Source: Ulva prolifera (Eukaryota > Chlorophyta > Ulvophyceae > Ulvales > Ulvaceae). Taken from it: DNA of 64,000 nt. How positions within the stretch are numbered: the first letter of the stretch is position 1; each line of letters begins with the position of its first letter. The translations under genes and the position numbers were made by a program. The stretch covers positions 9,037,836-9,101,835 of the forward strand of contig CM041198.1 in the NCBI GenBank assembly GCA_023078555.1, read 5' to 3'. The notes beneath the pieces were generated by a model, which ran no database searches, was not told the DNA's origin, and saw only the letters and a list, made by a program, of their open reading frames with translations. Below, piece by piece: positions 7,488-57,951 of the stretch.

Positions 7488-7613
7488 TACAAGGATAAAG
7501 GGGGCGAGGCGGGCAGCACCGCGAAAGAAGCAAGCAGACCAAGCACACACCCAGATACCCACGCACTCCACACACAAACCCCATGACGCTCTCAGCAAAC
7601 GCCACAGAGCCGC
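7488..7613 (-). mobile_element. LINE fragment A (5'-truncated)
   Basis: Minus-strand copy of the GT-targeting LINE family. Its 3' end (TTGTA when read on the minus strand) abuts TGTGTGT ending at 7487. It carries the diagnostic motif GCGGTGCTGCCCGCC and then a GT-rich tail, and belongs to the subtype with CTTTCGCGGTGCTGCC. A 9-bp duplication, ACTGTGTGT, is shared between 7479-7487 and 7619-7627, the latter overlapping the target duplication of element B. Confidence 0.75.
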
Positions 7614-7774
7614 GGAGGACTGTGTGTTACAAGGACAAAGCAAGCAAGGCAGGTAGCACCGCGAGCAGCAACCAGGGGAACCGCACACCACGCAAGAAGC
7701 CACACGCAGCACACACCAACACACCCACGCAACGTCAGCACCTGCGCCGCCCACAGCCACACAGCCACACACAC

Positions 7775-8310
7775 TGGTTCACGGGGTGTGGGTGGGGATG
7801 GGCGTGTGGGTTTGCTTGTGGGTATGGGGTGGGCGGCTTGTGTGGCCCGCCATTGGGGCGCTGGCTCCGGGGCGCTGGCTCCGGGGCGCTGGCGCTTTGC
7901 ACGCTAGCCTTGGCTGCATGTGCTTTCGGGGCCCTTGCGCCTGGCTGGTGGGCGGGGTGCGGGTGGGGTTGGGCGTGTGGGTGTGCTTGTGGGTGTTGGG
8001 TGGGCGGCTTGTGTGTGTTACAACGGAAAAAGCCAGAGGGGCCGGTCGCACCGCCAGGACCAAGAGGGAGAGCACGAAACAACGCGACGCACACGCAACA
8101 GGAGAGCAAGGGGAGGCTTGTGTGTGTTTGGGGATGTGTGTGGTTGTGTGGCTGTGTGGCTGTGTGGCTGTGGCCGGCGCGAGTGCTGCCGTTGCGTGGG
8201 TGTGTTGGTGTGTGCTGCGTGTGGCTCGTTGCGTGTGGCTCGTTGCGTGGTGTGAGTTCCTCTGGTTGTTGTTCGCGGTGCTACCTGCTTTGCTTGATTT
8301 GTCCTTGTAA
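7775..8310 (+). mobile_element. LINE fragment C nested in B, opposite orientation
   Basis: Plus-strand insertion flanked by a perfect 17-bp duplication (left 7758-7774, right 8311-8327; begins CACACAGCCACAC). Its 3' end reads GCGGTGCTACC ... CCTTGTAA at 8276-8310. About 150 bp of C is the inverted counterpart of the terminal part of B, and its upstream UTR at 7880-8014 is the inverted counterpart of 8345-8480. This makes the locus look like a foldback element. Confidence 0.85.
8019..8114 (-). mobile_element. LINE fragment D nested in C (innermost)
   Basis: A 96-bp minus-strand insertion between perfect 13-bp copies of GGCTTGTGTGTGT (8006-8018 and 8115-8127). It belongs to the subtype with CCGGCCCCTCTGGC next to the terminus, the same subtype as the plus-strand end at 52387. 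This is the third nesting level, again reversed relative to its host. Confidence 0.85.
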
Positions 8311-8724
8311 CACACAGCCACACACACGACCACGCACACCCACGAACACACACAAGCCTCCCACCCAACACCCACAAGCACACCCACACGCCCACCCCCA
8401 CCCGCACCCCGCCCACCAGCCAGGCGCAAGAGCCCCGAAAGCACATGCAGCCAAGGCTACCGTGCAAAGAAACAGCGAGACCCCAACAACAACCCCTGCC
8501 CCCGGGAGGCCCCCGCCTCCCCCAGCACAACCCCCCCGCGGCCGCCCAGCCCCTGCACACCACCCCGCCCACCCGCAAACCCATACCCGCAACCCCCACA
8601 GTCCAGCCCAGCCGGCCCAGACTCCCTGGCTGCGGCCCAATGGCAGGCCACACGCAGACGCACGGGGAAGACAGCGGCGAAGCGCGGTACGCCAGAGCCG
8701 CCACTACGACGGAGGACTGTGTGT

Positions 8725-10417
8725 GGCACTGCCCCAACATGGTATACCACTGATCCTTGGCTTCCGTAGACGGCGTATGTATGCACGGAGAAAGGCACCA
8801 GCACCGCCGGCAGCACCGCCGCGCCAATCTCATGGGAGCGCGCCTTGCGGCACACGCAGGCTCCCACGGCGTGCAGCACATCCTGGGCCCGCCGAGGGTG
8901 CCTAGGCACGCAGGCTCACCCACGGCAGCACATTGGTGGTGAGATCTGGCAGACTGTGTACTGGAGGACAAGGGCCATGCAGGAGAGCCAGCTGTAATTA
9001 CCAATAGACTCCGTCTAGTCAAGGCAGACACCAGATTGAGGCGCCGTGCTCTCCTTCGAGGAGCTGGTGCAGGCCAAGGCACGGAATCAGTTCGGGCCTG
9101 CTGCTGCCCCATAAGAATACACGGCATCCCGCTTTCTGCCAATTGACAATTGACATGATTGGTACATATGCACAAGCTTGCTGCAGCTCGTGAACCCAAA
9201 TGAGTGCTGGAACCTCGGCAGGTGCATATTGTGCGAGAGCAACAGCACTGCACTGAAGATGTCACCCCGACCACCCCGTCTGCACGGAGCATGACTATGC
9301 TGCTGTGATGTTGTGCGCCATATCCGCTTCGGCACCATGGAAGCGGGAGACAATCGTTGAGACATGCGCATCCCCCACCTGGGAGACAACACCACAGTGG
9401 GCGGCCTCAATGTCACGTCATAAGAGCCTGACGTCTGGCTTCATTGGTGATGATGACTTGAAATTCAGTACATTTGTTCACCAATGCCAAGTCGTCGAGG
9501 TTTCACGATCCAAGCATCAACGAACTTCAACACATGTGTACAGGACCCAACGCACGCGTACGGTCCACTCCCGCACACTTCCATCGCCCATGAATCTGCA
9601 TCCGGTGTGAAAGCTGACCTGTGTCGTAGATATGTTGACATATGGGCCAGAATCCTCACAAGCTGAAGAAGCGCACAAGGCGCGCGCGTCTGCTGGAAGC
9701 AACAATGCTCCGGAAGAGGAAGGCACGAGCGTCACATATACCATCGGTTTTGTGATGTCACAAAGGGTATATTCCGAACTTTTCTCGCTTGGTCGCTGGG
9801 ACAACCAAGGTTCAGCGAATTACAGACGGAGCGAGCCCGAATACTTGTCAGATGAACTACTTTTATACCGCTATCGCCAGTTCATGGTCAACGACCAGCC
9901 TGGGCTACCAGTGCGGCTGAAGCAGTCCGTGGTGCTGGACTGTCAGCACCGCCCAGCACTCGTCAAAGCGGTGTGTCCACACGTGTCTGGAGCATCTTCC
10001 AGCTCCCATCGCAATATGTTGCTCTCAAGCGAGACTGAAGTGCCGAAAACCATCCACAGCTGTACATGAACAGTGCCGAAAACCATCCACAGCTGTACAT
10101 ATATGAACGTTCACATGGGCTGTGCGTGGTAGCAGCCGCCGCTGTGGCAGTGACCATTTCCTGTGTTGCCCTCTACAGGGGTCACTGTGTCCTCGAGGCC
10201 GCACATATGGTGTACACGCGCCCTACGCATACGCGGCCTTCGGCACAGCGGACACATGTCTCCGCTGTGCCGCCGAATCCTGTTGGATAACATATATATA
10301 CATATGTGGCATAACAGACATGTCACGCGCCAACAAAGTGTGGACTCTCTGACTGCAAGTGCAACAGTTCATTGCACCGCCATCATTCGCACCCAATCAT
10401 CATCACTCCGCGCAGGT
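8725..10417. other. Intergenic; one short tandem duplication
   Basis: A 28-bp sequence starting GTGCCGAAAACCATCCAC occurs twice, at 10040-10067 and 10073-10100. A frame at about 9680-10069 (SVTYTIGFVMSQRVYSELF...) has reasonable composition and could be an exon of the following gene, but no splice pair could be fixed. Confidence 0.4.
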
Positions 10418-11730
10418 TGACATCAAAGGGGCTGGAATCGAAATCGAGGCCCTCGAGGCAGATGACAGGATCGTGCACAGCATGGCCAGCATGGTCTCGA
10501 CCCTGTCGCAGCAGGCCCTCCACCTCAACCAGAAGATCTCTGCTTATGCCTCCACACAGAGGCCCTCTCGCGTGCAGTGCGTGGAGCCTGCGCCACGGGG
10601 AGCATCTGCACAGCGCGTCCAGGCCAACACCGTGATCATCCAGGCCAACTTTGGCAACTTCAGGACGCAGCGGGATAAGCTCGTTGCGCGGGCGTTTGTG
10701 CGGCCGGAGGCGTACGCGGCGGTGCTGGAGGAGGCCGGCCGCGGCAGCGAGGCGGCGGTGCCGTTTGCGGACGACCCGGCGTGGCTGTACAGGGCGCGCT
10801 GGGCCACCAGCCTGCCATTCATGTCTGCCCACCCCTCCATCACCAGGCACGCCCCGCTGCCCCATGGCTACCCTGGGACCTCGGCCTCACTGTGTGCTTG
10901 CACACGCGCTGTGTGCCTCCATCGGCCGTGATGACAACCACAACCAGGTCCCTTTTCACCAGCCTAAGGTTGCACTTAAATTCAACTTGAACAGGATTGT
11001 TATCAGCCCGAGCCCCATATAGCCCCGAGCCCCATATGCATGCAGCAGCACACAGCGCTGCGGAGCGCGCCGGTGGTGCGGTGGCCGCAGCTGGACTCTG
11101 CGTCCTGATGCTGGAGCCCGACGCAAGCCTGTTGATGTGGTGTCACATGTATGCAAGTGCAGGATCAACACAAACGAGGCAGAGGTGGTGCTGCGAGGGG
11201 ACATCACCCGGCACGGCTTCCGCCCAGGGCCGGCCTTCACGCTTCCCCGTGCCTCCGGGCCCACGAGAGCTCAGATCTACTGCTCCACCGTGTTTCCCTA
11301 CTGCTTTGTATCTATAAAGCGCTGTGGCTCAGATCGCTTTGCCAGGCTCAGTACTGAGTCAGCGGCACAATTGCGTGATGGCACGGGGACACCAACAGGC
11401 ATCGCAGTAGCCTGCTTTGAAGCGCAGGACATTATGCATGTGGTACATGCGGTTGCGAGGGAACTTGCACGGCTCAGCCCGGCTGCGGCCGGCGGCCTTG
11501 TGAGCGCGACGCGCAACACTCACCCCGCTGACGCCGGCATGTCCTTGAATGTTGTGCCGGTGGCGCCTGGTGCGCAAATCCGAGTGTACGACTCTGGGGG
11601 GGATGGGTTCTCTCTCAAGGAGCTGGAGGAGGTTCGGCGCGGAGGGGGTGCGTCTCCCACGCTGCTTGGATTGCCAACTCTAATCCGCTCCAATTCACGG
11701 GTCGCGCTGCTGAACAAGACACTGCTGTAG
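10418..11730 (+). CDS. Uncharacterised protein, at least two exons (5' end not fixed)
   Basis: A first exon opens after the acceptor CCGCGCAG at 10417 (VDIKGAGIEIEALEADDRIV...) and stays open past 10860. It has Ala/Arg-rich helical segments such as LVARAFVRPEAYAAVLEEAG. A second exon opens after a GCATGCAG acceptor near 11046 (RKPVDVVSHVCKCRINTNEAEVVLRGD...) and runs to the stop at 11728-11730. The donor between them was not identified. No family was recognised: there are no transmembrane stretches, Cys is sparse, and the C-terminal third is Gly/Leu-rich (LKELEEVRRGGGASPTLLG). The opposite strand has frames too, but their composition is less protein-like. Start and intron ends need transcript data. 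Confidence 0.45.
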
Positions 11731-12300
11731 GTAGCTCCTGTACCGGTACCGGTCATGGGGTTGTGCTCTGCATCGATGCACACTTGGCAATACACACCTC
11801 TTAGTCTAGTACGGTATATGTATGCCTGTGCAGTGTGTAGCTAGTCAACATGCTTGTCTCTGTTTCAGCTCACACAATTAGAAACCCATGGAGCAATCCC
11901 AGAGGCAGCTAGAGTGGTGTGTCTTCTCGCCCGCGAAATTTTGTCATCTCTCCACCTGGTGCTCTCTGCTTGCATGTGTTGCCTGTGTCAAGCTAGCTGC
12001 AGACTAGCACCCAAAGCCGAGCACCGAACGGTTCGATGTGCTGCAGCCGGGACGCACCCGAGCACACGCCATGAACTCAATTTTTAACACCTGGCATGCC
12101 GTGGCGTGGAAAATGTGTATGCAGCATCGTCTGCATGGTTGCCTACCCTCCCAGGGTGCTAAGCACGTGTGGCCACCTGTGCAGTTTCATGCGGAGACAT
12201 CCGGCGGAGGCTGGTTGCGTTCCGAGCCTGGAAGGCAATCAACACAAAGTATAAGCAAGTCGCTTTCCACCCACGTGTGTTGCCCGGGCCACGGGCCTGC
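11731..12300. other. Intergenic, nothing recognised
   Basis: No family-like reading frame, no repeat family and no obvious hairpin were seen. Confidence 0.4.
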
Positions 12301-12897
12301 ATGCCTCCCACACCCACTCGCCCTGCTGCCTGGCTCTGCAACTGGCTCTGGGGCAGCCTTGCATCTTTGTACAAGGCTTGCGTCAAGGAGGTTGATGATA
12401 TAGACGCTGGGTGTGGCGACCTTGAATGCGACGACGCTCACGTGAGTGATGTTCAAGTTGACAGATACCCGGGAGCGGGCCCAGGCCTGAGCGTCACGCA
12501 TTATTGGCATGATAACGTTAACCGTGACGATGCCACGAGCAGCGCTCACGCATCCGATGATAAGGGTCATCTTGGAGAGGACGACATGTGTAGCTGGCAT
12601 GATGACCTTGAATGCGACAACGTTCATGTGTCTAATGACGAGGGATATCCGGGAGTCAACCCGGACGACATGTTCAGCTGGCATGATGACCTTGACTATG
12701 ACCAGGATAACGTGACTGATGAAGAGGGACGTCCGGGAGCGGACGACACATGCGGCTGGCATGTCGACTTGGACTGTACATGTCCTGTTGATCGCACATC
12801 TGCTGATCTGGAAGAGCTAGAGGACATGTACATGTCTCGTCACTGTGTGCCTAAGTCTCAGCGCAGGCACTGCAGATCGGGAGTTGATAACCTTTGA
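12301..12897 (+). CDS. Acidic protein with degenerate internal repeats
   Basis: The frame opens from ATG 12301 (MPPTPTRPAAWLCNWLWG) to TGA 12895-12897, 198 residues; it remains open upstream to 12169 without an ATG. After a short hydrophobic N-terminus with three Trp, the protein becomes Asp/Glu-rich. It carries repeats built on DD(M/T)CxWHxDL(E/D)xD, about 26-28 residues each (84- and 78-bp periods at about 12581, 12665 and 12743). A more diverged unit may lie near 12500. Conserved Trp-His and Cys positions in each unit suggest selection at the protein level. No known family is recognised. An expressed small secreted or nuclear acidic protein and a fortuitous tandem repeat are both possible. 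Confidence 0.4.
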   Translation: MPPTPTRPAAWLCNWLWGSLASLYKACVKEVDDIDAGCGDLECDDAHVSDVQVDRYPGAGPGLSVTHYWHDNVNRDDATSSAHASDDKGHLGEDDMCSWHDDLECDNVHVSNDEGYPGVNPDDMFSWHDDLDYDQDNVTDEEGRPGADDTCGWHVDLDCTCPVDRTSADLEELEDMYMSRHCVPKSQRRHCRSGVDNL

Positions 12898-13339
12898 TGG
12901 TGCCTGACCAAACTCATATCATGATGGTCAATCGGCCTGGGCACGCAAACTGCTTCGTGTCGTGGCCCCGGCATGCCATGGTGTTGGCAGAGGACTGGGC
13001 GGCTGCACCGTGGAGGTGTTGATGTGCCGACTGGTGTGGCGCATGCCGCTCAGGGTCAGCTCTAGAGATCTACTGCGTGGGGAGGCGCAAAAGGGGAGGC
13101 AGGGGGGAGGGAGTGCCTGCAATTGGGGGGCTGCAATATGGGGGCCACATGGGTGGGGCGAGATTTCGGATGTCGGCGCCAAGGGCACCCGGCGCGTTTT
13201 GTGTGCCCGGCGATGGTAAGGCGGTCACGTGTGTTAATATCGGGTCTGCCGGTGCACGCACACAGTGGGTTTTGTCGGAATGGTACCGGTGCCGCAGTGT
13301 GGTGTACACTCACGGGTGCATCATGATGCATGTGTGGGT
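12898..13339. other. Intergenic, G-rich
   Basis: The plus strand is strongly G-rich at 13080-13150 (runs of G). There is no supported gene. The end of the region becomes the target site of LINE fragment E. Confidence 0.4.
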
Positions 13340-13357
13340 GGGTGTTGGCGTGTGTGT

Positions 13358-13668
13358 TACAAGGACAAAGCAAGCGAGGCAGGTAGCACCGCAAGCAAGA
13401 AGCAGGGGAAACGCACACCACGCAGCAAGCCACACGAAGCGCACACCAAAACACCCACGCAACGGCAGCACCCGCGCCGAACACAGCGACACGGCCACAC
13501 AACCACACACACGCCCATGCCCACACGCCCATCCCCACCCGAACCCCGCCCAACAGCAAGGCGCACGAGCCCCGGAAGCACCAGCAGCCAAGGCCGCTCA
13601 GCAAACAAACAGCGAACCCGCAACAACCCCCAGCCCGGGGAGGCCCCCGCCTCCCCCAGCACAACCCC
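13358..13668 (-). mobile_element. LINE fragment E
   Basis: Minus-strand, 5'-truncated copy flanked by a perfect 18-bp duplication beginning GGGTGTTGGCG (13340-13357 and 13669-13686). The 3' motif GCGGTGCTACCTGCC is intact. The retained UTR segment matches that in elements B and C, with a stretch translating as RAPEAPAAKA / APKAHAAKA in the same register. Confidence 0.9.
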
Positions 13669-13686
13669 GGGTGTTGGCGTGTGTGT

Positions 13687-14561: not shown

Positions 14562-14878
14562 TGTCATGTTGAGTCATCAGCACTCAAGTACATATATGAC
14601 CAGATCCTCAAAGGAAAGTAGTACACCTTCGGGTGGGCGCTTTTCCTGACATGGTATCGATGAGAGTGGTCATAGAGAGGATCTTAGCCTCCATAGACGC
14701 GGGTTCAAATCCGGGCAGCTGCACCCAGGATACGCGTCCGCCTTCCAAGCTTTCGGATCCTAGTCAACGGTCCTTGAGTGAAGGGGGGTGTCATGTTGAG
14801 TCATCAGCACTCAAGTACATATATGACCAGATCCTCAAAGGAAAGTAGTACACCTTCGGGTGGGCGCTTTTCCTGACA
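14562..14878 (+). mobile_element. Complete TRIM (terminal-repeat retrotransposon in miniature), 317 bp
   Basis: Two 90-bp LTRs (14562-14651 and 14789-14878) are identical by eye, begin TGTCA and end TGACA. The primer-binding site TGGTATC starts at the first base after the 5' LTR (14652), resembling the initiator-tRNA-Met site of plant LTR elements. A purine tract, GAGTGAAGGGGGG, sits directly before the 3' LTR. A 5-bp target duplication, GCAAT, flanks the element (14557-14561 and 14879-14883). The internal 137 bp has no coding capacity, so the element is non-autonomous. LTR identity points to a very recent insertion. Orientation is inferred from the PBS and purine tract. Confidence 0.95.
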
Positions 14879-15479: not shown

Positions 15480-15898
15480 AATGACACATGAAGCTGCTGA
15501 AGATTGGAAACAGCATGCATGCATCCTGCAACGCCACGCCATAGTTCCGGAGTCCAAGATTCTCCAGGCTTGCTGAGGTCCAGGTGCGTGCAGCAGTCCG
15601 CCCGCAGCCACTTCACACACAGCATCGGCGGCAGCCGCACCGCCTCAGCCACACTCTCGATCAGTGCCGGTGATGGGTTTTCTGGGCGTGGCGGCTGTTG
15701 CGTGCGTGGGTGTCTGGGTATGTCCTTCCAAATCGTCTGCTTTTTTCTTTCGCGGAATTGCCCGCCTAGGCAAGCTTGCTGCCTTTGTCCTTGTAACACA
15801 CTCTCGATCCGCGGCGGCCACTCGAGCTCGGGCCGTGTCACCATGTTGACAGTAAAGGCACCATCGGGCAAGCGCTGCAAAGCCTGCACAGCATGCAT
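15480..15898 (-). CDS. LRR protein exon (paralogue A) carrying an in-frame LINE insertion
   Basis: The minus strand reads QALQRLPDGAFTVNMVTRPELEWPPRIESV, then 49 extra codons ending in a second IESV, then AEAVRLPPMLCVKWLRADC, HLDLSKPGESWTPELWRGVAGCM, and LQQLHVSL. The LRR-like parts before and after the insert join in the same frame, because LINE plus target duplication add exactly 147 bp. The inserted part (LQGQRQQACLGGQFRERK...) is basic and unlike the host protein. This exon probably splices to 14238-14490. Whether the insert is translated or removed is unknown. Confidence 0.55.
15663..15797 (+). mobile_element. LINE fragment F inserted in LRR exon
   Basis: Plus-strand 5'-truncated copy between two ACACTCTCGATC duplications (15651-15662 and 15798-15809; 12 bp, perfect). 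It ends GCTGCCTTTGTCCTTGTAAC. Its 5' part (GGTGATGGG ... GGTGTCTGGGTATG) matches the UTR of elements G and H at 32566 onward, which gives the subtype. Confidence 0.9.
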
Positions 15899-31232: not shown

Positions 31233-34200
31233 ATGGGGCGCACTGACGTCGACGCCTGGACCCGCGTTGACCCCGTTTTCAACGAAGGGACACCAGTACA
31301 AGGCAGAGTGGCATTAAGGCTGCAGGTCATTTCGGATCGTGTCGCTCGGGTGTGTCACAGCATCGTGTGCCGTATCCTCCGTGTCCTGCGTGCAACACCG
31401 ACGGATGCTCTTCGGCACGCGACGCCGCAGCTCTTCTGAGCCCACGGCGCCGTATAAGCATATCTACAGGTAGACTTACGCTGTTTGAATGCACTGCAGC
31501 CGGGCTGTCGGCAATGCCATCGCCGCATGATGCGCATCACCAAATACCTTGCCGCACCAGTCAATGTGTTACAAGGACAAAGGCAGCAAGTCGGGCAGCA
31601 CCGCGAAAGGAGCAAGCAGACGAAGCAAACACCAAGACACCCACGAACATCTCACACATCACCGGCGTAGCAAGCGACACAGATCCGCAGACCGCCAAGC
31701 ACACACCCACACACCAGCACACACACGCACAGACCCGCCCCCGAGGCCGCCGACCGGCGCAAGCGCGAAAAGTACGGCCGGGCCGGCGCGGGCGCGTTCA
31801 CGCTGGTCCCGCTGACGCATGAGACGTACGGCCGTGTTGGCCCGGCCGCCTTTGCATTCCTCAACAGGCTTGCTGATGTGGCTGCAGGGTCTGGCGCGGC
31901 CTCTCGGCGGCGTTTCCTGGAGAACGCAATGCGCGATCTCTCGACGACGCTCTGTCGTGCAGTGGCGCGCCAGGTGCGCGCCGCAGCTCCGCTGATGGCA
32001 CGTCACGCGGGCAAGGCAGTTTTGGCGGGCCTCACGGTCCCGTCCGATGACCTCTCGCCGCTTACAGGCCATCCGGCCTGAGCGGTGGGGTGCCCCTTGG
32101 GCGCCCCGTCCGCTTGACGCCACCGGCCTGTGGCCTCTGACTCCAGCTGGGCCGGGTCCGATGGGTGTGCGGGATGCCTTCGTTGGCATGTGCGGGGACT
32201 GCGGAACGGCTTGGGCGCTGCATTGTCCTGGGTGCGGTGCGGCGTGGGCCGGCGGGGCTGCGCGGCGGTGTGCCGGGCTGGCGTGGTATGCTGTGGCTTG
32301 GTGGGGTGGGGGTGGGTCTTGGGGCCAGGGCGGCCCCCGGCAATCGGGCGGCCATGATGGGCGGCCTCAGGCAGCAGTGTGTTGGGTTTGGCCCTGTCGT
32401 CCGGCGGCGGGCGTTGTGGTGCTGGTGGTTGTGATGTTGTGTGTCGGCCGTGGGGTTTGTGCGTGCGCGTGTGTGGGTTTGGGTTTGTGGGTGTGTGGGT
32501 CTGTGCGTGTGTGTGCTGGTGTGTGGGTGTGTGCTTGGCGGTCTGCGGATCTGTGTCGCTTGCTGCGCCGGTGATGGGTGAGATGTTCGTGGGTGTCTTG
32601 GTGTTTGCTTCGTCTGCTTGCTCCTTTCGCGGTGCTGCCCGACTTGCTGCCTTTGTCCTTGTAACACACGCACAGACCCACACACCCACAAACCCAAACC
32701 CACACACGCGCACGCACAAACCCCACGGCCGACACACAACATCACAACACCAGTCAATGTGTATATTAACGTTTATCTCGAGACAGCCGACCAGTCACAT
32801 TGGCGGCAAAGTACCCGTCAATCTACAAAGCTTCAACGATACTGCGTGTTGTTCACCTTGTAGTTCGCATGCTACTGGAACCAGCTGAGGCTGTCATCAC
32901 GGGTTTGCCTCAGTGGGCGTCTGTGTGTTGCAGCGATCATGCTGGAGAGGCAGGTAGCCCTCCAGGCATCGCACGTTAACACAGTGCATCCCATACACAT
33001 CAAATCCTACCATGGAATGACCTGACATCACCCCAGCCACTCCAGCGCAGCCTCACACCAGTTTGGCTGTGAGTACATGTACATACGCGTATGTTGCACG
33101 CTTGTAGCAGCTTGCAACAGCGTACACCACCTCCACAAGTCAACCATGCCCACATCAGCATCATTCAGTTCTGACACACTTCAGAGGCTGTGCAATGCCC
33201 GATACATGCACCATGTTGTCAAGCGACCATGGATCCAACCTTTCAGCCAGGCCAACCTCCCCGTGCCCTGCAGCGGATGAGCCTGGCCATGAACCTCCTC
33301 TGGCTGGCTCTCCCAGCAATGGTGTTCATCCTCATCCTCAAGTATGAAACGGTGCGATTGCTGCACTGCAACATGCACAGAGCCTGCAGGTGAAGCACTG
33401 GAACTGCCCATCCATCCGTTACTTCGCCAGCACAGTTGTCACAAACGTTCTCGCACACACCAACCCTCTCCGATCAAAGCTATGAATCTCACGACTGAAG
33501 CAGCCTGCGTCGTGGTCGCAGCGTCTGGAACCTATCGCAGCATGCCACACTCTGCCCTCGTCCACACACGTCAGCACCCTTGCAGCCCCCTCACACAATA
33601 GGTGCTTGCTCTGCTTGCTTCTTTCGCGGCGCTGCCCGCCTTGCCACCTTTGTCCTTGTAACACAATAGGTGCGCCTGTGCTCTCGGGATAGGCAGCGAG
33701 ATGACCAGGCATCACCGCTAGCAGCCTCAGAATCTTAAGCTGCGGCAGTCTCTGCTTGTGCAGGACCCAAACGACTTTGTGCTGTCGCACCAGACCCACA
33801 ACCCGCCAGCTGTGATGTCGGCCGTCACTCTCTTTGCCCTGCTGTGCGTGCTGGCCCGCCTGGCCCTGGCCTGCATCAGCCTGAGGCATGCCCGCTGGTG
33901 CGCCTCCGCACCCTCGCGCCTGAGGCTGCTCGCACCCCCCCTGGCCTCTTCCACAACAGAATGCACTCCAGCTCGCACTGTATCGGTCCAGGATGGTCGC
34001 TTCTGCTGCCTCTGAGACACGCCGCGCCGCGACGCATGCATGCTGCTCGTCACCTTGCGGCTCACTGCGCTGGGCTTTGCTTCGGCAGTGGTGCAGCCGT
34101 CACTTCCCGGCGCCGCATCCCAGCCCGCCAGCGCACGAGGCAAGAGCTGCGTCAGTGAACCGTGATGATCGCTCATCGTAGGGCATACCACGTCATGGTC

Positions 34201-37200
34201 ACGGTGTTCGACGTCTCCCATACCAGAACGCATGCGCTGTGTTGGCGCATGCATCATCACTGGCAGCCTCGCGCCAGCTCAGCGTGGCTGCCGCGGGCAC
34301 CCTCCCTCCCTGATCAGGGCTTGCCCTGCCGTTCGTACCGGTATCGGCGCTCGCGGCCGCATCGGAAAAAGCGGCGGCAGACGCATTGCGCGCATGCATG
34401 CAGGACGATCGCGCAGAGGAGGCTGGTGTGGCTGCGCGGCCTCGTCGTGGCGCTGCTGGCGGCGGGGGCCGCGCTCACAGTGCTGCCGAACGTGGCCGTG
34501 GTGCTGCAGCCGTGCTTGTACCGCGACGGCCGCGGCTCGGTCGTGCGGTGGGCATCCGTGGCGCGCCAGGGCCTCGCGTTTGCGTTTGTCGCGGCCAAGT
34601 GCACGGAGGTATGTGCATGTGCCTCTGGCCTGCAGCGGGAAGTGCTCAGCCGCCGTCGCGCATGCGTGTGTGTTACATGGACAAAAGCGGAGGGGCAAGT
34701 AGCACCACAGGAACACGAACAGGAACTCCATCATGCGTGTGTGTTTCCACAGGCCTCTTGGTCCTGCTGTAGCCACGCAGCACAGCACAGCACAGCACAG
34801 CACAGAGATCGTCCCCCCTCCAATGCCGGAGCGTGCTGCGGCAGACGAGGAGGTGTTACAGCACCCTGGCGGTGTTTGCGGGTCAGCCGTGCGAGGTGCC
34901 ATGCAGGTGAGGTGCCTGCTCCTGCGCGACCCCGGCGACTGCTTCCGGGACACCATCGGGATGTTCCGCCACTGCCTGCCCCGCGCCGCAGCCGCCTCCA
35001 TCACCCGCAGCCTCGGCAACCGCTCCGCCCGCCTCCCCGGCGCGGACCCCCTCCGCTCCGCCGAATGCCCCTCTGCAGGCGCAGGCATGGTGCACATGCA
35101 TGTACACGCCGGTGCTGACGCTACCAAGCCCAGCCCGGACATGCACGTGCCGCCTCCGGCCGCATGCGTAGCAGCTGACGCGGAGGGCGAAGCTGGCAGT
35201 GGTGGGAAGGAAGGGGATGCTGCAGTGGCCGATGCTGACAGGGGGGGCAGTGAAGCGGGGTGTAGGGGGGACTGCGGAGCTGCCGAGGTCTGGCCGTACG
35301 GACAGAAGCTTGTGCCCGTGCTGGCACTCCCAGAGCCGCTGCTGATGTGGGCGTGGCATGTGTGGCTGCTCGCCGCTGGCGGGATCGGTGCGGCCCCCCG
35401 CCCTCACATCCGGACATGCGACTCTGGTTCAATCGCCACAGCTGCAGTCCCAGGAGTTTGGCCACGCACGCACATGACCTGCGCGCCACACGCTTACCAC
35501 GCGTGCTGTGCACGCTGTGCTCGCAACCCGTATGCTGCGCAGTTGGCCGCTCCTTTCCGGCCTATCGGCGGCAATGCATGAGGTCTGGATGAGCTACGTG
35601 GCGCGGGGAGCGCGAGCAACGACGCTCTCGTCAGCGGCATGTGGGAGCCACTGTGGCCACTGGTGCAGGCGCGATGGTCGTGCACGGCCTGGTGCGGAAA
35701 CCTGCGGTGGAGTTTGAGAGCGGCGGCAGAGTGTGCCGCGGTGTTCGCCCGGGTGCGGGTGGCTGCAAGTGCGACAGAGGAACACTCCGGTGTAAGGACC
35801 CGGGGATCGTGTCCACGGGTGCTGCCATTGTGGCGACAGTGCTGTATGCTACCCTGGGGTGCCTCCTCCTCCGCGACCTGTGGCGGGCGCGGCGGCGCGT
35901 CGCGCGGCAGCTATACATGGCCAACCGACACACCCACGCGCTGCTCACCATCACGGTGCGCCTCCCTTGCGCCCGGGGTCTGTGCCGCATTCTTTGCCAC
36001 GGGCGGTGCCGCGTTCGTTCAACGTCAGCATTGTGAACGAGTCATGTCCAAGCACTGCCCTCGTGCCATTGACGGCGACTCCGCACGACCACGGCCGATG
36101 CCAGCTGGCCATGCCCCCACAAGCGCATCCATTGGTCCGTTCTCCGCGGCTGGTGCTGTGGAATTGGAATGCGCTGTGGGTGGGTTGGGGCCGATGAGGG
36201 AGTGGTGCAACTTACTAAGCTGCACTGGTTGATCTACTTATGCGTACAATGGCCTTGGCATGCATACGGCGTGCGACCAGGCTGTGCGTTCGTGGCCTAG
36301 GGGGCCACGCTAGCCCACCACGCAGGCAGAGAGGCCACCGGGGGCCGCCACACGGTGCCGTAGAATTTCTTTTCGCTGTATCTGTGGTGTAACATGTTGG
36401 TGCAAGTACGTCCCCAGCCTCCTCCCGCCCGCCAACACGGGTGTACGGTTTTGTACAGAAGCGCTTCAGCGTCGCGGCAGTGCTGATCGTGCTGCTTACT
36501 GCCGGGTCTGCTGCCTTGCCAGCCCCACGCGACGGCATCCTTGCCGCGCTGCCCGCCGCGCTGCAGACGCCGCAGCGGTGCGCATCTTTCGTGAGTTCCA
36601 CGTTTGGAAATTCCCTCACCAACGCCATCCTCGCGGCTCTCGCCGTGGTGGAGCTCGCACTCGTGTGGCCGCTGCTTGCAGCCGAGGCCAAACGACCCAT
36701 GCATGAGCACCTGCAGCGCTTCGTGTGGGTGGATGCTGACCTTGCGGAGGCCAAGGCGGCACGCGATCGTGGTGCCCTCCCCCACGACACCTCAGAGGCG
36801 CGTCATCCCCTGCCTTTCTGTTCATCGATAATGAAATGCGTTAGATGCATGCATGTGTGTAGTAGCGAGATATGTAAAAGCGCAATTCTTAAGACTACCA
36901 CATCCTTGAGATGTTCCGGCTTTGGTTCGGTGTGGCAAAGCTGAAACCGAGACGCTTGCGGAATACTTGCAAATTTGCATGGACCTGATGCATCTCTGCA
37001 ACGAATTGTGTGGAGGACATCACTTGAGCATAGAAGCACGACCCGAGTATACCGCACTCGCCGAGTCATGCCAGGGGCCGGAGTTGGTGCTGCCATGTCG
37101 GAGGTATGCATTCTGACCTCGGCACATGCATGATGTGCATGCATGCAGGTGCCGATGTTCAGCATGCAGCGCGCGGTGAACCTGTTCTTCTGGATGAGCC

Positions 37201-41207: not shown

Positions 41208-43100
41208 TCATGGCAGGAAGTCAGAGGCGGGGTAGACCGCGAGCTCCTCCGGCGCGTCGTCCGGTGGCGCGAGGTGGAACAGGGAGTTGCCGCACAGCAG
41301 GTTCTCGCCCTCCGGGCCGTCGATGGCCGAGGCCGGGAGGCCCTCCGCTGCCGCCGCCTCCCTCAGCAGCGCCTCGCGCACAGGGTGCAGCACGCGCTGC
41401 ATTGGGAGCTTCACACCAAGAGCAACGACGTCGCTGGGGTTGGTGTTGTTCGCCCGCACGTACTGCACACAAACATGCCTGTCACCGCCTCTGTGGACGA
41501 GTTAGTGGCGCCGAATTATGTACACATACACAAATCGCCGCCTCTTGCGAGGCGACTTTGAACAGATGGACAACCACATGCCGCAAAAGGATCGAGTGTG
41601 CAGTCTTCAGCATGCTGCTGTGTGTGTGATATTGTCCCCGGCCTTGAGTGTGAGCCCCGAGTATCACAAGGACAGGCAGGAGGTGGAGAGGTCGGCAGCA
41701 CCGCATGGACCGCATGCACCACAAGAACATACAGCACACTCAAGCCACCACTCGGCCGGGGACCACCCCACACACATGCGTTTTCAATAGCTGGCTGTGG
41801 AGAGCGGGGGGGCACCTTGCGCTTGTCGGTGCGCCACAGCTGCGACACCGGCGGCGGCAGCATGACGTAACCCGGCAGGTGGTGCGCCTTGAGCAGCGCA
41901 ATCATCGAGAGGTCGACCGGCTTGTTCACGTCGTGCCCGATGGCGTCCACAAACAGCTGCGCCACCGTCGCATTCCGCAGCGCGTACGCATGCGTGCACG
42001 CCGGGCTCTGCGCCCTGTACAGCCTGCACCCCACGACACCCCCGCGTGCAGCATGCAGAGGAGATGACTCCTGTGAATCACACTGTGTGGCCACAGGGGC
42101 GCGTGTGCCGCGGAGGGGGGAGGGCGCACCGGTGTCCGACCTTGTGGCCACTGTGGTCCTGCATCTCCTCGAAGCAGTGGCCGACCCAGAGGATCGCCCA
42201 GTCGGGCGGGGCGTTGCGCACGGCTGCGGCGACCGATTCCACAAAGTCGAGCTCTGGGTCGATGTCGTCCTCGAGGATGAGCACCGGGCGGCGGAAGTCC
42301 TTGGCAGCGATATCGAGCCACACCTCTCGGTGCGACACGAAGCATGCGATCTGTGCGCGGAGGAACGAGGGCTTGCGGGGGGGGTGCAATTTGTACAGAG
42401 GGGGAGGTGCGGCGTCAGGTACTGGCGGCTGGGGAGAGGGCGGGGGCTCCTCGTCAAAGATGGGGTTCGGGAAGGCCGTTTTGCGCTGCACGGCGTACGT
42501 CCGGACCGCGGCGGTGTACTTTGAGAAGGCAGGCCATAGGAGGGCGGAGATGTTGAGGCGCTGCAGGATGGAGCAGATGTAGTGGCGTCGGTCTGGGCGG
42601 GTCGGGAGGTTGATGGCGTAGACCTCTGCAAAGTGGTCAAAGATCTGGGGGTGCTGGTGCTCGCCCGGAGGCAGCGGCTGGATGCGTGTCGGCATGGGGA
42701 GCTCTGGTTTGTGCAGCTCCGTGAGCCGATCGAGAGCTGCTGTGTCAGAGTCGCTGTCCGGCTGTGCGGGGCAGCTGCATTGCCCGACTGGCACCTCTTG
42801 CACGGAGTGGAGGTCCGGCTGAAAGAATGATGTGGAGTGGATGTAGTCAGCCAGCGAGTCCTGCTCGGCTAAGCGGAACCGAGGAGCGGCCTGGCGATAC
42901 AAAGCCTTGTGAGCTTGCTGCTTCTGGGCCCTGTTGGTGGGGAGCCACGAAGCCTTGCCCGCGCTGGTTTCATCGCCAGTTTTCGCCACTTGCACGGTGG
43001 GGCTGGAGAGGAAAATATGCGTGGCCGCTGCGACGAAGGCCAGTCCCAGCAGTATGACTGACCTGCGATATTTGACGACGACATCATTGCCGCGGTACAT
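41208..43100 (-). CDS. Glycosyltransferase family 25 (LPS-type beta-glycosyltransferase)
   Basis: Exons: 43100-42130, 42023-41816, 41462-41208. Phases join (2/1, 0/0), giving about 477 residues. A signal-anchor helix near residues 14-31 (SVILLGLAFVAAATHIFL) predicts a type II Golgi membrane protein. A stem region follows, and then the GT25 core: VYAINLPTRPDRRHYICSIL near the start, RAQIACFVSHREVWLDIAAK, and the acidic metal/nucleotide motif VLILEDDIDPELDF. Donors are GTGCGCCCTCC and GTGCCCCCC; acceptors are GGGTGCAG and TGTGCAG. The family includes collagen and LOS galactosyl- or glucosyl-transferases; sugar donor and acceptor cannot be told here. The C-terminal exon (NNTNPSDVVALG ... YPASDFLP) has no recognised motif. 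Confidence 0.85.
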
Positions 43101-45926
43101 GCGCAGTTCCAGCTCGAGGCCGCTCTGGCGGTCAGCAGTGCCGGCCTACCGACCTGTCCCAGACACGACACGCTACTCAACAGTCTCTACTCAACATGTA
43201 ATTGAGATGTTGCGACCTATGTTGGGTTGCACGAGGCCTGCCAGTGGCTCTGATCAAGCTCCTCGAGTCCGGATGCCTTGCCGGTTTTAGCTGACGATGA
43301 ACGGGCACAGGCAGTTCCCTGGTCACGAATGAAAGGCCAAACACAGTATGTAAGATGCAAAAAGTGCACAATTCTACATTCTGAAAACCATCCGAGACTA
43401 TGCACCAGCAGCGTCGGTGTCCTATAACCTCTCAGTGCTCGTGCCACAGCGGCACCATAGTTGACAATAACCGTGAAATCATATGATCTGCACTGGTGTC
43501 TGACCACCGTTGAAATCAGACACAAGCGAAGACCTCAAGTCATCGCGAGCGCACGATGCTGCAGCGGAGCAGCTGCAGGTTCACCGCAAACCTAGCAAGG
43601 CGTCGAGGATGACTGTTACCGCGCAATCTCGGACTTTCGCCGTAGGCGCATCGCAAGAATTCGCTCGGCTCCTGCAGTGCTGCCTGCCTCTCCGACGTTG
43701 TGCTTGGAGCAAACACTTCTCAGGACAGTGCAAATCTGTATGCAAGCTGTACACATGTGCGGCACGTTGCCGCGGGCAGCGAACGTGACGAGGCCGGAAA
43801 TACGAGGCGGCATCGAGCACATGCAATCACATGCAAGTTTAAACAGCATCAGGAAGGCAGATCAGTCCTGCAGGATACTTAATTTGCGCCGAGGCACAGC
43901 TCATCCCGCCTGGCTGCCCGGCGTTTCGTCCCGATCACGCCCATAGATGCACGCACTCCAGGACCAGACTGACAAGCTGCGGCGTTTTTAGACTGATCAT
44001 CTGCCTATAGCTCCTGGAAGCAGCACAAGCGCAGTGTGTGTACGCTGGGGACGACGGGAATCCACATTTTGCGCGCCGAGCGTCAGGCAAGTCTAGTTCC
44101 CATTTTCCTCGGGATCACTACAATCCACACACAACAGATGAAGATGCGCTGTTGGTTTAGCGGCTTCTCCTTGTGCACTAACGCTCTCACGTAATGTCAA
44201 GCACTGACGTTCGTCTCAATGAGCTGCCACATCCCATCATATGTTCCCGAGGTCGTCCCCATATCCCCTCTGTCTGCTCAAAAACGAGCATATACGCAGA
44301 TCCCGGTCTGCGAGTTGCTATGATCAATGCCGTCACCTCCGTAGAGAATGCTATGCCCAGGTATTACCAATGGCACGCTGTAGCCGTGCCGGTAAGCCCT
44401 CAAAGCGCACAAGGGGCTGCACCGGCCGCAAACAAACCGATTTCAGCGATAAATTTCGTGGCCATGATATATATACGGCAATACCACCACGAAGCTGCAT
44501 ATGTGCTGGCCATCTGGTGTCAGCTGACACTTGCATGCAGGCCCGCCGGCCACGCCACTTCCATGACAGAATGATGCAATGTGGGGTCTCAACGGGACCT
44601 GTTCAAACATCATGCCGGCGAGTACATAGCTGGCCAGGGGTACATAGCTGCGACCTCTTGAGCTTGTGGAACAGGTGGCTACGCGTGGCAAATCACAGTG
44701 GCTTCATGCCACGCACGCAGGGAGACTTTACCATTACAGCGATGCATGAAGATTCTTGTGCACTCTATTGGTGGTACATTCTATGCTACAAATGTATCCG
44801 AGGCTGCTCACTGTAGATGCACGTTTTTCTGGGACAGTGCCATCGCGAAGAATTTTCATAGGCGGTCATCATGCGCGTGGTGCCGCGGACTTGCATGCTA
44901 TCATCATGGCGCATGTAGCCCTGCAGACTGACGCACCTGATGCCGTCCCTGCAGAAGCCTCGTGTCACTTCCGCAGTCGCGCGGTGCACTGTTCGCCAAT
45001 CACCTTGATAAAGGTTCACATACTGGCCAGTGACAGATTTCATTCTGTAGCAGTTCTCCAGTGTAATTTGATTGCCTTTTTTCCCTGAACACGGCTTTGT
45101 TTTTCGGTGTTTGAGTCACCTAGCACTCACATTTGCTTCCAATTTTGTCGCATACAGAAACACGAGCTGAAAGCAAGACAAAGTTCCCATCAGGCTTGTA
45201 TCGAGATTTTGGTCAGGTGTGAGAAAGCGGCTCTGAGACCGTGCTACTGGCAGTGTTGCGCACATTCGAGCTCGCGGAGCTCGCTTTGCTACGGAAGCGC
45301 TGACGCTGTTGAAGCTGCCGCTCCGATTGAATTTCCTTCTCAATGGATCGCATATGAGGCTGTATGCTGGTTTAGCAATTTCCAGTCGATGGCCGGCTTG
45401 AAGCCTGCTGGTCTTTGTGAACCTCGGGACCCTTTGCCTGGATCGCAGCCAGACAATCTTATTTTGACGACAGTAGACATGTTACAACATGTTGTTATGC
45501 CGAATGCCCCAGATTTTCAGGCTTTGCCACAGTTGATGGTGCTTGTGAGCAACACATGACGTGCGCTGGCGCGACACACACACATGGCGAGCTGATCGAC
45601 ATCAACATATTTTGCGTCATAACAACTCTTTGGGCAAAATCCATGCATGCGCGATTCATGGTCTCCATAAGGAGCGATGGCGCTGCATTTTGATTCGCGT
45701 CATGTGTTGTCCGTTCTATGCTAGATCGCGCAGGACAGAAAGGACACAATTGCAGCGGCTGGCAGGGGCTGGATGCCCCGGAAGAATGAGCGTGTCGAGA
45801 TATTGTCGCGTATATGGCTCTCCATATCGGGACGAGCGAACGAACGTGCATCTGTGTGACGCACACCTGCCTGCTTGTAGGTGAGAGCACAGGGAGGGCC
45901 TGCGCAAAGGAGCCAGGCAGCAAAGG
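43101..45926. other. Long intergenic region between divergent genes
   Basis: 2.8 kb between the start of the minus-strand glycosyltransferase and the start of the plus-strand LRR gene. It must hold both promoters. Only short, composition-poor frames occur (the longest, at 45107-45559, is not convincing). No LINE end motif, tRNA or rRNA was seen. The DNA is less GC-rich than the flanking exons. Confidence 0.5.
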
Positions 45927-51971: not shown

Positions 51972-52012
51972 TACAAAGGACAAAGCCGGAGGGGCCGGTA
52001 GCACCGCCAGGA
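51972..52012 (-). mobile_element. LINE fragment K1, 41 bp, nested in K
   Basis: Only 41 bp of element between perfect 16-bp copies of GGGGGTGGGTGTGTGT (51956-51971 and 52013-52028). It is the shortest insertion in the window and a clean demonstration of target-primed insertion of the 3' end. Confidence 0.95.
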
Positions 52013-52068: not shown

Positions 52069-52196
52069 TACAAGGACAAAGCAAGCGAGGCAGGTAGCAC
52101 CGCAAGCAAGAAGCAGGGGAAACGCACACCACGCAACAAGCCACACGAAGCGCACACCAAAACACCCACGCAACGGCAGCACCCACGCAACGGCAG
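52069..52196 (-). mobile_element. LINE fragment K2, 128 bp, nested in K
   Basis: Flanked by perfect 15-bp copies of GTGTGGGAGTGTGTG (52053-52067 and 52197-52211). Its sequence is nearly that of element E (same GCAAGCAAGAAGCAGGGGAA stretch), so the two come from the same subfamily, whereas its host K is of the CCGGCCCC subtype. Confidence 0.95.
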
Positions 52197-52401
52197 GTGT
52201 GGGAGTGTGTGGGAGTATGGGAGTGGGTGGGTGCTTGTGGTGCCTTGGCGTTGGGAGTGGGACTGTGTGGGTGCTTGTGGTGCCTTGGCGTTGGCTGTTG
52301 CTCTCCTGTTGCGTGCGCATTGCGTTGTGCGTGCTCCCCTTCTTGGTCCTGGCGGTGCTACCGGCCCCTCTGGCTTTTTCCTTTGTAGCACGAGAGCGAG
52401 G

Positions 52402-53022
52402 CTGTGTGGAGCTCCGCAGCACCGTTGGGAACCACAGAGCCTGTAAGGCCAGATGGCCACTGCGTCAGGAAGGATGCAGACTATATTCCAAATCTCTAGG
52501 AGTAGAAGACTTCTGCAGAGCACGGGCACCGGGGAGCCCCTCCGTGGAAACACCACCGCCAGATCAGAAGCCCTGTGCCAGATGTGTCCCTGGTGGGTGG
52601 GGGCCCACCCGGCCGAGTCATCGTTTCTGCTTGAGAGATCTCCACAACGCTGTGATGAACGCCGCTGTGCTTGCTACCATGACCGATAATGCTGGGTGTG
52701 TCGCAGGATATGCTGAGGGCGTCAAAACTGGCGCCACACCTAACGATCGGCTGCATGCAAAAACTGCATCGACGGCACGCATGATGGTGCGCGTTGTGAA
52801 ATCTGCCCCAGTGTGCTCCGTGCAGCCGCAAGCCCGGTACCGAGTGCTGCATCTCCGCACCATCATGTGGATTGGGCATCCGTCTGCCAACTTTGCATCG
52901 TCTGTGTCTTGAGCAGCTTACATGTGCCCCGTCTCACGCCTTGCACTGCCCCAGCAAATGGGCAATGTGAACACACACGTACTTGAAGAAGCACTTCAGC
53001 AAGAATTCCCGTAGCAAATCTA
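52402..53022. other. Upstream region of the DUF3754 gene
   Basis: Open frames continue out of the LINE but have no family-like features. It probably includes the promoter and 5' UTR of the gene starting at 53023. Confidence 0.4.
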
Positions 53023-56000
53023 ATGACTGGGGCTTCGAAGCCAGTGGAGAAGGAGGATCCCCCGACAGCGGGGTACCGCATCGTCTTGCCTCCAGCACGC
53101 CACATTCCGTTGACGGTCAATGATGTCGTGGAAGCAATGAGACATCTTGTTCCTCATCATGAGCGCTCCATGTTTGACGAGATCTGCCAGATCGTGGAAG
53201 GCCTGGCAATGACGGAGTTTTCCGCCATCCGTCGACGAACAAAGAAAAACTTCCGGTTTTTCTCGCAAGCAGCCTTGCACAGAGATATGCCGACCCGAAG
53301 AGGCCGAGGACGTGCGCTACACAATCTGGGAAAGCGTGCACTAGTAGCTAACGCACCGTGTGGCTTCCGTCGTTCGTCAGCACGCTGCACACTCAACACA
53401 GCATTATCAGTGACCGACTCTACCATGCTGCAGTGAAAAAGGAAGATACAATGGATGAAATGGAGGTGGTATTCCTCTCTGATTTCTGGTAAGCGCGCGC
53501 CCGGCAGAGCCTGACAAGTGCTTGTCAACACTGTACATCCATGCCTCGACGGCATGCTAGCCTCCGACGTTGCCCCTGATTTATGTTCCCAGAAAAGTGT
53601 TTTCGGCATATTGAAGGATACATGGCTACCTGGCATGATCTCTGATATGTGTACAGGGACCTCATGGACTTTGCACATTACTCCGCACTCAGTGAGGCGG
53701 ACTGGCTGGCGGTCAAGCAGGAGCGCCTGATGCTCGACATGCCTCTGACTATCAACTGGGATCATATGGACGCCAGGCTTCTGCAACGCTTTTTCAAAAG
53801 AAGGCCCCAGCGCATGGAGAACTTGTATCGGTACGAGCCATTCCCAGTCAGGCTGTCCCACTCTGCATCTTTCACATGGTGCAACAGATGGTGCAACAGC
53901 TAAAGTCTTCAGAAGAGTCTGCACATTGTTGACGCGACGTACGGCGAAGCTTTGAGCCCCTGTTGACTGTGTTGCCATGGCAGGGGCTCACAGACTACAA
54001 GGGCATAGCCTCCGCAATTCCTTGCTGCTACGGTCATGCCACACTTGCCCCAATAATGTATCGATGTCAGATATATTCCTGGCTTGTACGTCTCACAGCA
54101 TCCCCTGGACCCATACACTAAGGTTACAACCATGTGCACCATCCCACACTCTGAGGCGCAGCTGCTTGCAGAGGCACATACATATCATAGCAGGTCTCAG
54201 CCTGATGGTCTTCGTCACTTCGTCACTTTGAAGTTATACCTTGGCATTCTCAACTGAGGCCGCCAGCGCCATGCAACATCGTGGCCATGGTGCAGGCACA
54301 AGGAGCGCTGCCTGCTGTTCCACCGTGGCGTGGGTGTCGTCCGGAAGAAGGACCTCTTCATCATTGAGAAGGTCGACCTGCTTGTCAAGTACCTCGTCGC
54401 CTGGCCTGCGAAGCAGGTGCGCCCCATGCCTGCAAAACTCTTTCTGAAGATCTCTTCGAGAAGGCTCCACGTCCACACTGACACACACACACACACACAC
54501 AGACCTTGACACTGCCACCCTCGTATATCTGTACTCGGTGACCTCGAGCCTTCATAGGCCTGCAATACACCATCAGACTGTTTCGCGTGCGCCTACACAC
54601 AAGTGTGTGTGCCCGAGTTCCACACGGCCCCCCATGGGTAGAACGGCCCTTCTGGGAAGTGGCGGGCAGTACCACAAGGGTGCCATCGTGACCATCCAGA
54701 TGGTCTTTATGCGCCCACACAGCGAGCTGCTGTTTGCAAGCACGCGGCCGACCCCGCGTCTGTCTCAGCGCGTACCCGCGCGATCACGGACCCCTGTGTT
54801 GCGCAGAAGTCTGCCGACTATCTCTGCACACCACTGTGTCAATGGGGTGCGCAGGACAGGCAGGTATGCATCGCATATCCGGAGCGGCGTCGCCCTGCCC
54901 ACAGCTGCTCTGCGTGGGCTCTGTGAACAAAGCCGCCTGGTCGCTGCATACACCACACTTTTGCATCGTGGCGGGAACTCTGCAGGGGGAACTGGCTACC
55001 TGAAAGTGTATCCGCAGTCAGCCAAGAAATCCTGGCAGAACAGCCGCCAGCGCTTCTTCCACTGTTTCTCTCAAGAATGCAGTGGCCAGCAGCCTCACAG
55101 TTTGTTGCCGGCACACAGGTGTTCTACAAGATCGCGCCGCGTCTGCCAAAGTCGCTGCGCGACAAGGCAGAGGCGATGAAGGAGAAGGACCACGAGAAGT
55201 CCATCAACCCGAACTCCGCGCGGACGATGGACGAGGTGGAGGAGCGCGACGAGGCCGCGGCTCATCGCGCCGCCAACTCCATCACCCGCGTCTCGCTGCG
55301 CCTGCTGCTGCCGACGTGGCGGGACATCCTGCGCAAGCTCTTCACGCCGCTGGAGATCGTCGAGCCGACGTACAAGGACATCATCACGCTGTACCGGTGT
55401 GCATGGTCTCTCGCCTGCGCTGTGCTGCTCTGCGCCGCCGTCATGTTCGCCTCATGTTTGTGCGGAGTAGAGTCGATAATTTTGTTGTTACTGGTTTGAA
55501 GCTGCGGCATCAGCACCCTGTGGCGATCGTTCGTGTGCCCTGTGCCTGTGTGGCTGAACATGGCGGGGGGTGCTAGCCCCGCCTCACCGGCGCCTGCGGA
55601 CACTGCCGGTCACACGCGAAAGGGCGGGCACACCCCACGGCAGCACAAGATGCGGGCTTGCTTCAGTGCGATGCTGTACTCTATGTGCACATCGGTCCGC
55701 TGAGCCCAGCAATGCCCTGCTGTGCCCAAAGCCTACAATCAGCACAACACACGAACGCCCCGCACGGCGCAGGAAGAAGGTCGCGGCCCCATCAGAGAAG
55801 GAGCTCAAGGCCAACCCTGCCAAGGCGGAGGCGTTCCGGCGCGACCAGCGAGGCATCGTCGTGAAGCGCTTCGACGAGGTGCCCGTCGCCGACGTCGAGA
55901 TCGTGTTCCCGGACAAGTCCGTCGGCCTCAAGCTCATCGACCTCCTGACGCTGTACGGCACGGCCATCGGCGCCTTCATCGGCGGCGTCATGGCCTTCTT

Positions 56001-57861
56001 CGGCGCACAGCTCGAGTTGTCCTACGTGCTGTCCACCCTCGGAGTTGTCGGCGGCAAGCTCTTCCAGGTGCGCCCCCCCCCCTTCCCCGTGCCCAGTGGG
56101 GTTCACCAGACTGCATGCTGTGTGGGCGTCAGCCTGTAGGTCATGATCAAATCTGACTGGCGGTATACATGTTGGGGATGGCATACCCATGCTGCAGTAG
56201 CCTGGCGTGCAGCACCGTCACGATCAACATCTCCGGTGAGTGTGCTCGGCGGCCAGCACAAAACAGTGTGCCGTTGTATCCTGTGGCACAAGTCAGATTC
56301 TGCGGCCACATGTGGCTTAGATGCTTCGTTCGGTCCAGAATCTCGGCATTGTCAATGTCCCAGTGGGTGTGACTTTGTCATCATGCATGCCTGCCCGCGT
56401 CGCACGGCCTGCGACAGCCACGGTCGCGTGCCCGCGGTTGTGCCCATGCACCGCAGTGAATCGTGCACTCTCGAGGACAGTTGTGCTGCGAGAGCCACCG
56501 CAGCGGCACGAGGCGTTGGTGGACGTGTGGGGTGGCATGCAGACATACACCAAGATGGAGGCGAAGAAGGCGGAGATGATGAAGCAGATGTCGCAGACGG
56601 TGTTTGACATCAGCATGGACTCGCAGGAGGGCGCCATCTACTCCGTGCTTGACGAGATGGCCGACCAGTACGTCAAAGAGATCCTGCTCGCCTACTTCCT
56701 CCTCCTCAAGTACAAGTACCCCTGCACCGAGGCGCGCCCCCTGCCTCACCTGCAATCAGTCCACGCGCAACAACAAGGTACAATCTTTCCATTGGGAATT
56801 CAAGACCACCAAACACTCGCGGCCATCGCACATGCTGTTGGACGCGGCGCGCGTGGTAGACATCGCCCAGCGTCTTTGGCGCTGGGGCACAGGAGAGGCC
56901 TGCTTGGCCTGCTTCTTACTGACGAACAGATCAACACTCAGCGTGTGCGCCTCGTGCTGTGGTGCCGAGCAGCGGTGTAGCAGCAGGCGGGTAGCAACCA
57001 CGAGGGTGCGCGAGTGGCTAAGGGCACCTGCGGCTGTGCATGGTGTGCGTGCGTGGCGCTGCAGCCCCACAGCTGCCTGTGGCTGCAGGGCGAGTTGGAC
57101 GAGCTGTGCGAGTCGTTCCTGGACGACAAGTTTGACGTGCGCATCGACTTTGCGATCGAGGAGTCGCTGCCGCGGCTGCGCCAGTACGGCCTCGTCGACG
57201 CGCAGCCCGACCCCGACGACCCCCGCGTCAAGGCCCCCGAGCTCGCGACCGCCCATAGCCGCCTCCTGCAGCGCTGGCAGCGGTGCGCCCCCACCCAGCC
57301 GCCCCGCCGCCGACATGCGTGCTTGTCTGCCACTCCGGTCCTCCATCCACTGCGTCCCAAGTGTAATTATTAAAGCATCAGTGCATGTGATGGATGGGCG
57401 CTTCCCTGGTGGCGCCCCCTCACATGTGCTTGACTGTGTGCATGTACACCGCTTGGCGGCTACCTGTGCGCATGTACACTGTGTGCATGTACAACGCTGA
57501 CTGTGTGCATGTACACCGCTTGGCGGCTGGCTGCATGGAGCACGTGGCTGTGAGGGCACATGTGCATTGCACTGATACCTCAGCTTCTCTACGGGTGCTA
57601 CTGTCTGGTCATGCTATCATCTGTGGACCTGCTGCTCGCATGGTCATTGAACTTTGTATCTCACAACGAGATGGCGAGATCCTTGGGATTGACGGGGCAC
57701 CTGGCGCAAGTAGACACTGTCGCCTTGTGTGTTACAAGGGTAAAGCAAGCAAGGCAGGTAGCACCGCGAGCAGCGACCAGGGGAACCGCACACCACGCAA
57801 CAAGCCACACGCAGCACACACCAACACACCCACGCAACGCAAGCACCCGCGCCGGCCACAG

Positions 57862-57951
<90 letters not shown>

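Follow-up and report, generated by a model that had tools for sequence, protein, structure and literature searches.

The R1-clade long interspersed nuclear elements (LINEs) Mino and Waldo insert at AC or ACAY repeats by means of an apurinic-type endonuclease, R2, a LINE with a restriction-like endonuclease (RLE), is specific for 28S ribosomal DNA, and elements of the R2 type are being turned into tools for gene insertion. Published RLE LINEs already include some that target TG or microsatellite sequence: the Togen families of fish, related to NeSL/HERO, are described as specific for (TG)n, and some families of the HERO clade as microsatellite-specific (Kojima and Jurka, 2015; PMC4640811). Green algal LINEs with the 3′ repeats (CA)n, (CATA)n and (CTTGTAA)n are tabulated within the L1 and RTEX clades (Ohshima, 2013, Table 3; PMC3747384). 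Here we analyze a family of repeats with a constant 3′ end in a stretch of 64,000 nucleotides from the green alga Ulva prolifera (assembly GCA_023078555.1, contig CM041198.1, positions 9,037,836 to 9,101,835; "the window"). With a probability of about 0.9, these repeats are 5′-truncated copies from a set of related R2-like families of LINEs whose autonomous element is ∼5.4 kb long.

The algal family resembles R2 in its best fold matches, in how the polymerase, the CCHC-like motif and the C-terminal domain follow one another, and in having no poly(A), but it inserts at scattered (A)CACA sites instead of 28S rRNA genes and has the letters CHDD at the active site; no Rfam family matched the window at the gathering threshold. 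With Mino and Waldo it shares the target sequence but not the apurinic-type endonuclease. Compared with Togen as described, the TG/CA target is alike, whereas the host is an alga and the site is a short motif that is usually not a repeat run, so that it does not qualify as a (TG)n microsatellite; the HERO families are by their description alike in RLE type, which is predicted for the algal family, and in a loose microsatellite preference. The algal LINEs of Ohshima (2013; PMC3747384), again compared by description, have very similar 3′-terminal letters but are filed under L1 and RTEX. Publications already cover RLE LINEs aimed at TG or at microsatellites, so the element is of a known kind; a new R2-like LINE family whose short target motif is borne in part by the RNA is well supported, with no claim that it is unpublished.

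Copies in the Window and in the Genome

Fourteen matches to the constant 3′ end (…TTGTCCTTGTA or close) were found in the window, against 0 in the reversed window at the same fixed mismatch limit. Their 3′ ends, with the length of the exact flanking duplication in brackets, lie on the minus strand at 7488 (10 bp), 7628 (15 bp), 8019 (14 bp), 13358 (18 bp), 31570 (15 bp), 34674 (14 bp), 51972 (16 bp), 52069 (15 bp) and 57733, and on the plus strand at 8309 (17 bp), 15795 (13 bp), 32663 (16 bp), 33660 (13 bp) and 52387; the final A of the tail is counted in the length for the 7488, 8019 and 34674 copies. Exact duplications of 10–18 bp accompany 12 of the 14 copies; for 52387 and 57733 none was found within the 4 kb searched, and a 12/14 match lies instead 693 and 219 bp upstream, respectively. 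The tail continues into ACACA, a sequence that occurs at 0.3% of window positions, in 13 of 14 copies, and into GCACG at 52387. An earlier note, made from the letters of the window alone, had counted at least thirteen insertions with a constant tail joined to ACACA, most of them with duplications of 12–18 bp, and the counts agree with it. Its lengths carry no coordinates and were compared as sets, not one by one; the sets agree to about one base, its weak case of only 9 bp is real (the 7488 copy, 9–10 bp) and its two 12/14 cases correspond to 52387 and 57733. The 12 insert lengths span 41–1178 bp and no two are alike, which indicates variable 5′ ends next to the constant 3′ end, as the note had described.

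In the host genome (88.9 Mb in 44 contigs) the tail pattern has 875 + 896 = 1,771 matches, and the reversed pattern 2 + 1 = 3. Exact GCTTTGTCCTTGTA tails, with any flank whose last letter is other than G, number 640, and ACACA follows directly in 459 of them (72%). From this set 69 junctions were listed, 62 of them distinct, which provide an unbiased set for the junction letters: the first five are A in 58, C in 61, A in 56, C in 60 and A in 59 of the 62. Beyond these five letters preference is weak (position 6 avoids A, 2/62; position 7 leans toward A, 27/62). No poly(A) tail is present among the 69 listed junctions, as had been stated. Duplications of at least 12 bp flank 36 of 55 distinct sampled copies, most of whose loci were fetched by a query containing ACACA, compared with 0.39% of 1,018 pairs of swapped flanks, in agreement with a LINE that duplicates its target. 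A 3′ hairpin common to the tails was sought by folding 21 distinct ones singly: 8 shared a short stem of the type GCGG.GC/GC.TCGC and the rest folded differently.

The Autonomous Element and Its Endonuclease

The window copies are mostly short and non-coding, and the genome harbors several LINE lineages, including an apurinic-type LINE with a frame of 1,574 amino acids (aa), both of which speak for a non-autonomous repeat resembling a short interspersed nuclear element, mobilized by another LINE whose tail it borrowed. We consider this very unlikely, because the longer copies extend into sequence that encodes the C terminus of an R2-like protein and because the insert lengths vary without a shared 5′ end. 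When the genome was searched at the protein level with that C-terminal stretch, 150 of 1,540 candidates were scored; this gave at least 150 matches (every candidate scored), at least nine of them within open frames no shorter than 1,400 aa. Among these frames, C1:786443 represents the family itself (99%) and eight represent sister families (84–86%). The C1:786443 copy (L087) spans ∼5.4 kb between 21-bp duplications and contains a single frame of 1,535 aa; it is the full-length copy with a reverse transcriptase that the earlier note had sought, the endonuclease being most likely of R2 type by its motif pattern. The open reading frame (ORF) comprises, in order, two N-terminal Cys/His clusters (spotted by eye; Pfam offers only zf-Di19, E 0.71), a reverse transcriptase (active site CHDD), CPCGRSGESGTHSLVC, RHN, a linker of low complexity and GDILAF…GDVCVSHP…K. 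It is followed by a GT-rich 3′ untranslated region (UTR) of ∼555 nt that ends in TTTGTCCTTGTAACT before CACACACACGG. Among the candidates scored, a same-strand tail lies 524–573 bp downstream of seven of the eight C-terminal matches on C1, and none was found downstream of the eighth, C1:2212073. A further locus, L055, was not accepted as a long copy, its only support being a 10-letter match 4.9 kb upstream. The route through PF00078 reached no autonomous copy: the tail was absent from all 30 cut-out loci scanned (150 of 452 candidates scored), and the family's own RVT_1 score (E 3.4e-4 in the 1,535-aa ORF) sits below the Pfam cut-off.

The protein nevertheless has the marks of a LINE-type reverse transcriptase, namely a long frame, an RVT_1 match, a sequence match to R2, and R2 and LINE-1 as top folds. 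In a fold search with a protein 98% identical to the L087 frame, the best matches were R2 proteins, with LINE-1 proteins also at the top; the R2 structure alignments have only 12–17% identity, and alignment of the full-length model with R2 extends to residue 1007, LINE-1 reaching nearly as far. In a tree of 23 rows, the family groups (100/99) with P0001–P0006 and with L086, which represents a second R2-like family described below, apart from P0014, which is named SLACS-like. The C-terminal part presents the pattern CxCx..H..C, RH(N/D) and D..D..K, in an alignment where P0013 lacks the motif region and P0002 its end, and the endonuclease domain modeled alone (P0004 and four relatives) gave no fold, with a mean predicted local distance difference test score of 42.5. 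From this motif pattern the endonuclease is most likely, as a prediction, of the R2-type restriction-like kind. Scanning the 1,535-aa ORF against Pfam at E up to 1 revealed no Exo_endo_phos, which does not fit Dualen/RandI; the combination of apurinic endonuclease and poly(A) tail that marks L1 is likewise absent from the ORF scan and the listed junctions.

Penelope-like elements of the algal Chlamys type, which carry a GIY-YIG nuclease, insert at (CA)n in green algae (a literature search yielded no paper on this), and would share the host group and have a similar target. That the repeats belong to this type is scarcely credible, given that the same Pfam scan yields RVT_1 and no GIY-YIG, that R2 and LINE-1 proteins head the fold matches, and that the element has a single long sense ORF. 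Because of the constant 3′ end, the duplications, the variable 5′ ends and the R2-like full-length copy, we conclude that the family is a LINE inserting by target-primed reverse transcription, most likely with a restriction-like endonuclease.

Target Letters, Element Letters and Mechanism

The boundary between element and target was read from 38 copies, among them L087, with duplications of at least 11 bp. The duplicated stretch begins 0, 1, 2 or 3 letters past TTGTA in 20, 10, 3 and 5 copies, respectively, and the intervening letters are A (10), ACA (4), AC (2), AA (1) and ACT (1). In 16 of the 18 informative copies A, AC or ACA is thus present even though the target lacks the first letters of ACACA; one ACA case, L044, can alternatively be read as an imperfect duplication. 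ACACA is therefore partly element sequence, at least the first letters of ACA being carried at the element's end. This could be extended to the notion that ACACA belongs wholly to the element and that targets are random. Such a reading is extremely unlikely. Once a copy from a tandem array, a pure AC run and a duplication of 34 bp are set aside from the 38, the 5′ member of the duplication, consisting of target sequence alone, begins with CACA or ACACA in 32 of 35. An offset of 4 or more, with 0–7 allowed, was needed by none of the 38, unlike what random targets would give. We conclude from the 32 of 35 that the target needs (A)CACA, which opens duplications of 11–24 bp in the copies counted. 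The tail joined to an ACACA target, as claimed in the earlier note, thus holds for the junction but not for the whole of ACACA, whose initial one to three letters can belong to the element.

Long GT repeats as the target, also put forward there, are not supported. No further repeat extends the motif at 28 of 46 ACACA insertion sites, compared with 52% of all ACACA in the window, and a run of 10 or more is found at 1 of 46 sites, compared with 12% of all ACACA there. The family targets a short (A)CACA motif and is not a microsatellite specialist. Two truncated copies on the reverse strand lie in repetitive surroundings, L046 within a long CA run and L063 near a run that translates as poly-isoleucine.

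These junctions suggest the following mechanism. The 3′ UTR of the element ends in …TTTGTCCTTGTA plus A, AC or ACA; the endonuclease would place a nick on the 3′ side of TGTG(T) in the bottom strand; the nicked end might then pair with the RNA terminus …UUGUAACA(CA) and prime cDNA synthesis, and a loosely placed top-strand cut 11–24 nt away would yield the duplication. Pairing of an RNA ending in …UUGUAACA(CA) with a TGTG(T)-3′ primer would be the simplest reading of the junctions, and the element-borne letters in 16 of 18 copies are as expected of an RNA ending in …UUGUAACA that pairs with a TGTG primer. The microhomology between a (TG)n primer and an AC-ending RNA, suggested by the earlier note, is favored by these letters and may apply. 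It is doubtful that in this algal lineage the choice of target depends mainly on pairing of the RNA's last letters (…UUGUAACACA) with the TGTG-3′ end, so that sister families with other tails would use other motifs. In the one junction read for the L086 family, …TTTGTAAC runs into TACATACATACATACA. If pairing did set the target, site choice could be rewritten through the tail, not the protein.

The family shows unusually clearly the fit between an RNA end and a cut DNA end, and its use lies in dividing the junction quantitatively into RNA letters and target letters. This bears on how far the match between primer and RNA, not recognition by the protein, sets the insertion site. With 1,771 tail matches, and readable duplications in about two thirds of those sampled, the shares of RNA and target can be separated for each letter; the genome also contains full-length open frames.

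Nesting and Individual Copies

Several inverted repeats of the window are due to nested LINE copies. The copy at 7628–8709 (−), flanked by ACACACAGTCCTCCG, contains that at 7775–8309 (+), which in turn contains 8019–8114 (−). The copy at 31570–32747 (−), whose inverted arms are I1 and I6, is split by 31737–32663 (+), and the 5′ part of the latter (31737–31955) encodes the C-terminal end of the protein, 47% identical to the L086 protein. All three directly nested pairs are thus opposite in strand. The sense strand of the L087 3′ UTR has six TGTGT and zero ACACA, from which sister copies are expected to nest there in opposite orientation; the nesting in the window fits such a head-to-head entry, which is suggestive with three pairs only.

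Among the remaining copies, 7488–7618 (−), 5′-truncated and probably the 9-bp case of the earlier note, abuts the 3′ end of the 7628 copy. Two copies are diverged, with 10 mismatches in the tail: 15663–15795 (+) and 34674–34731 (−; 58 bp). Further copies lie at 13358–13668 (−), 33606–33660 (+; 55 bp), 51972–52012 (−; 41 bp) and 52069–52196 (−). The 3′ end at 52387 (+) has another tail type, and the upstream copy of its imperfect duplication starts with ACACA, while the 3′ end at 57733 (−) is followed by ACACACAAGG.

Other Repeats and Genes

The L086 family was recognized at C3:1730401–1735400, where two copies lie in the same orientation (L086:135–3368 and 3911 onward). It has many matches near 95% to the query, with open frames of up to ∼1,200 aa, its tail CGGCCTCTGTCCTTTGTA occurs 628 times, and it forms clusters on C1, C3 and C9 that might mark centromeres. 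The apurinic-endonuclease LINE (G000) has 11 of 25 matches in 1,574-aa open frames with scores nearly all equal, for example at C3:1727278 and C1:1768568.

The window itself holds a segmental duplication (∼22.0–29.6 kb and 31.2–40.0 kb, spacing 9.2–10.5 kb, 74–99% identity per block) in which a class 3 lipase ORF occurs twice (26766 and 37134), and a perfect direct repeat of 90 bp (14562–14651 and 14789–14878, spacing 227). Judged by one window protein, the host is probably an ulvophyte-like green alga: the ORF at 42078–43142 encodes a glycosyltransferase of family 25, and the one named protein among its four matches, from Ulva mutabilis, shows 64% identity.
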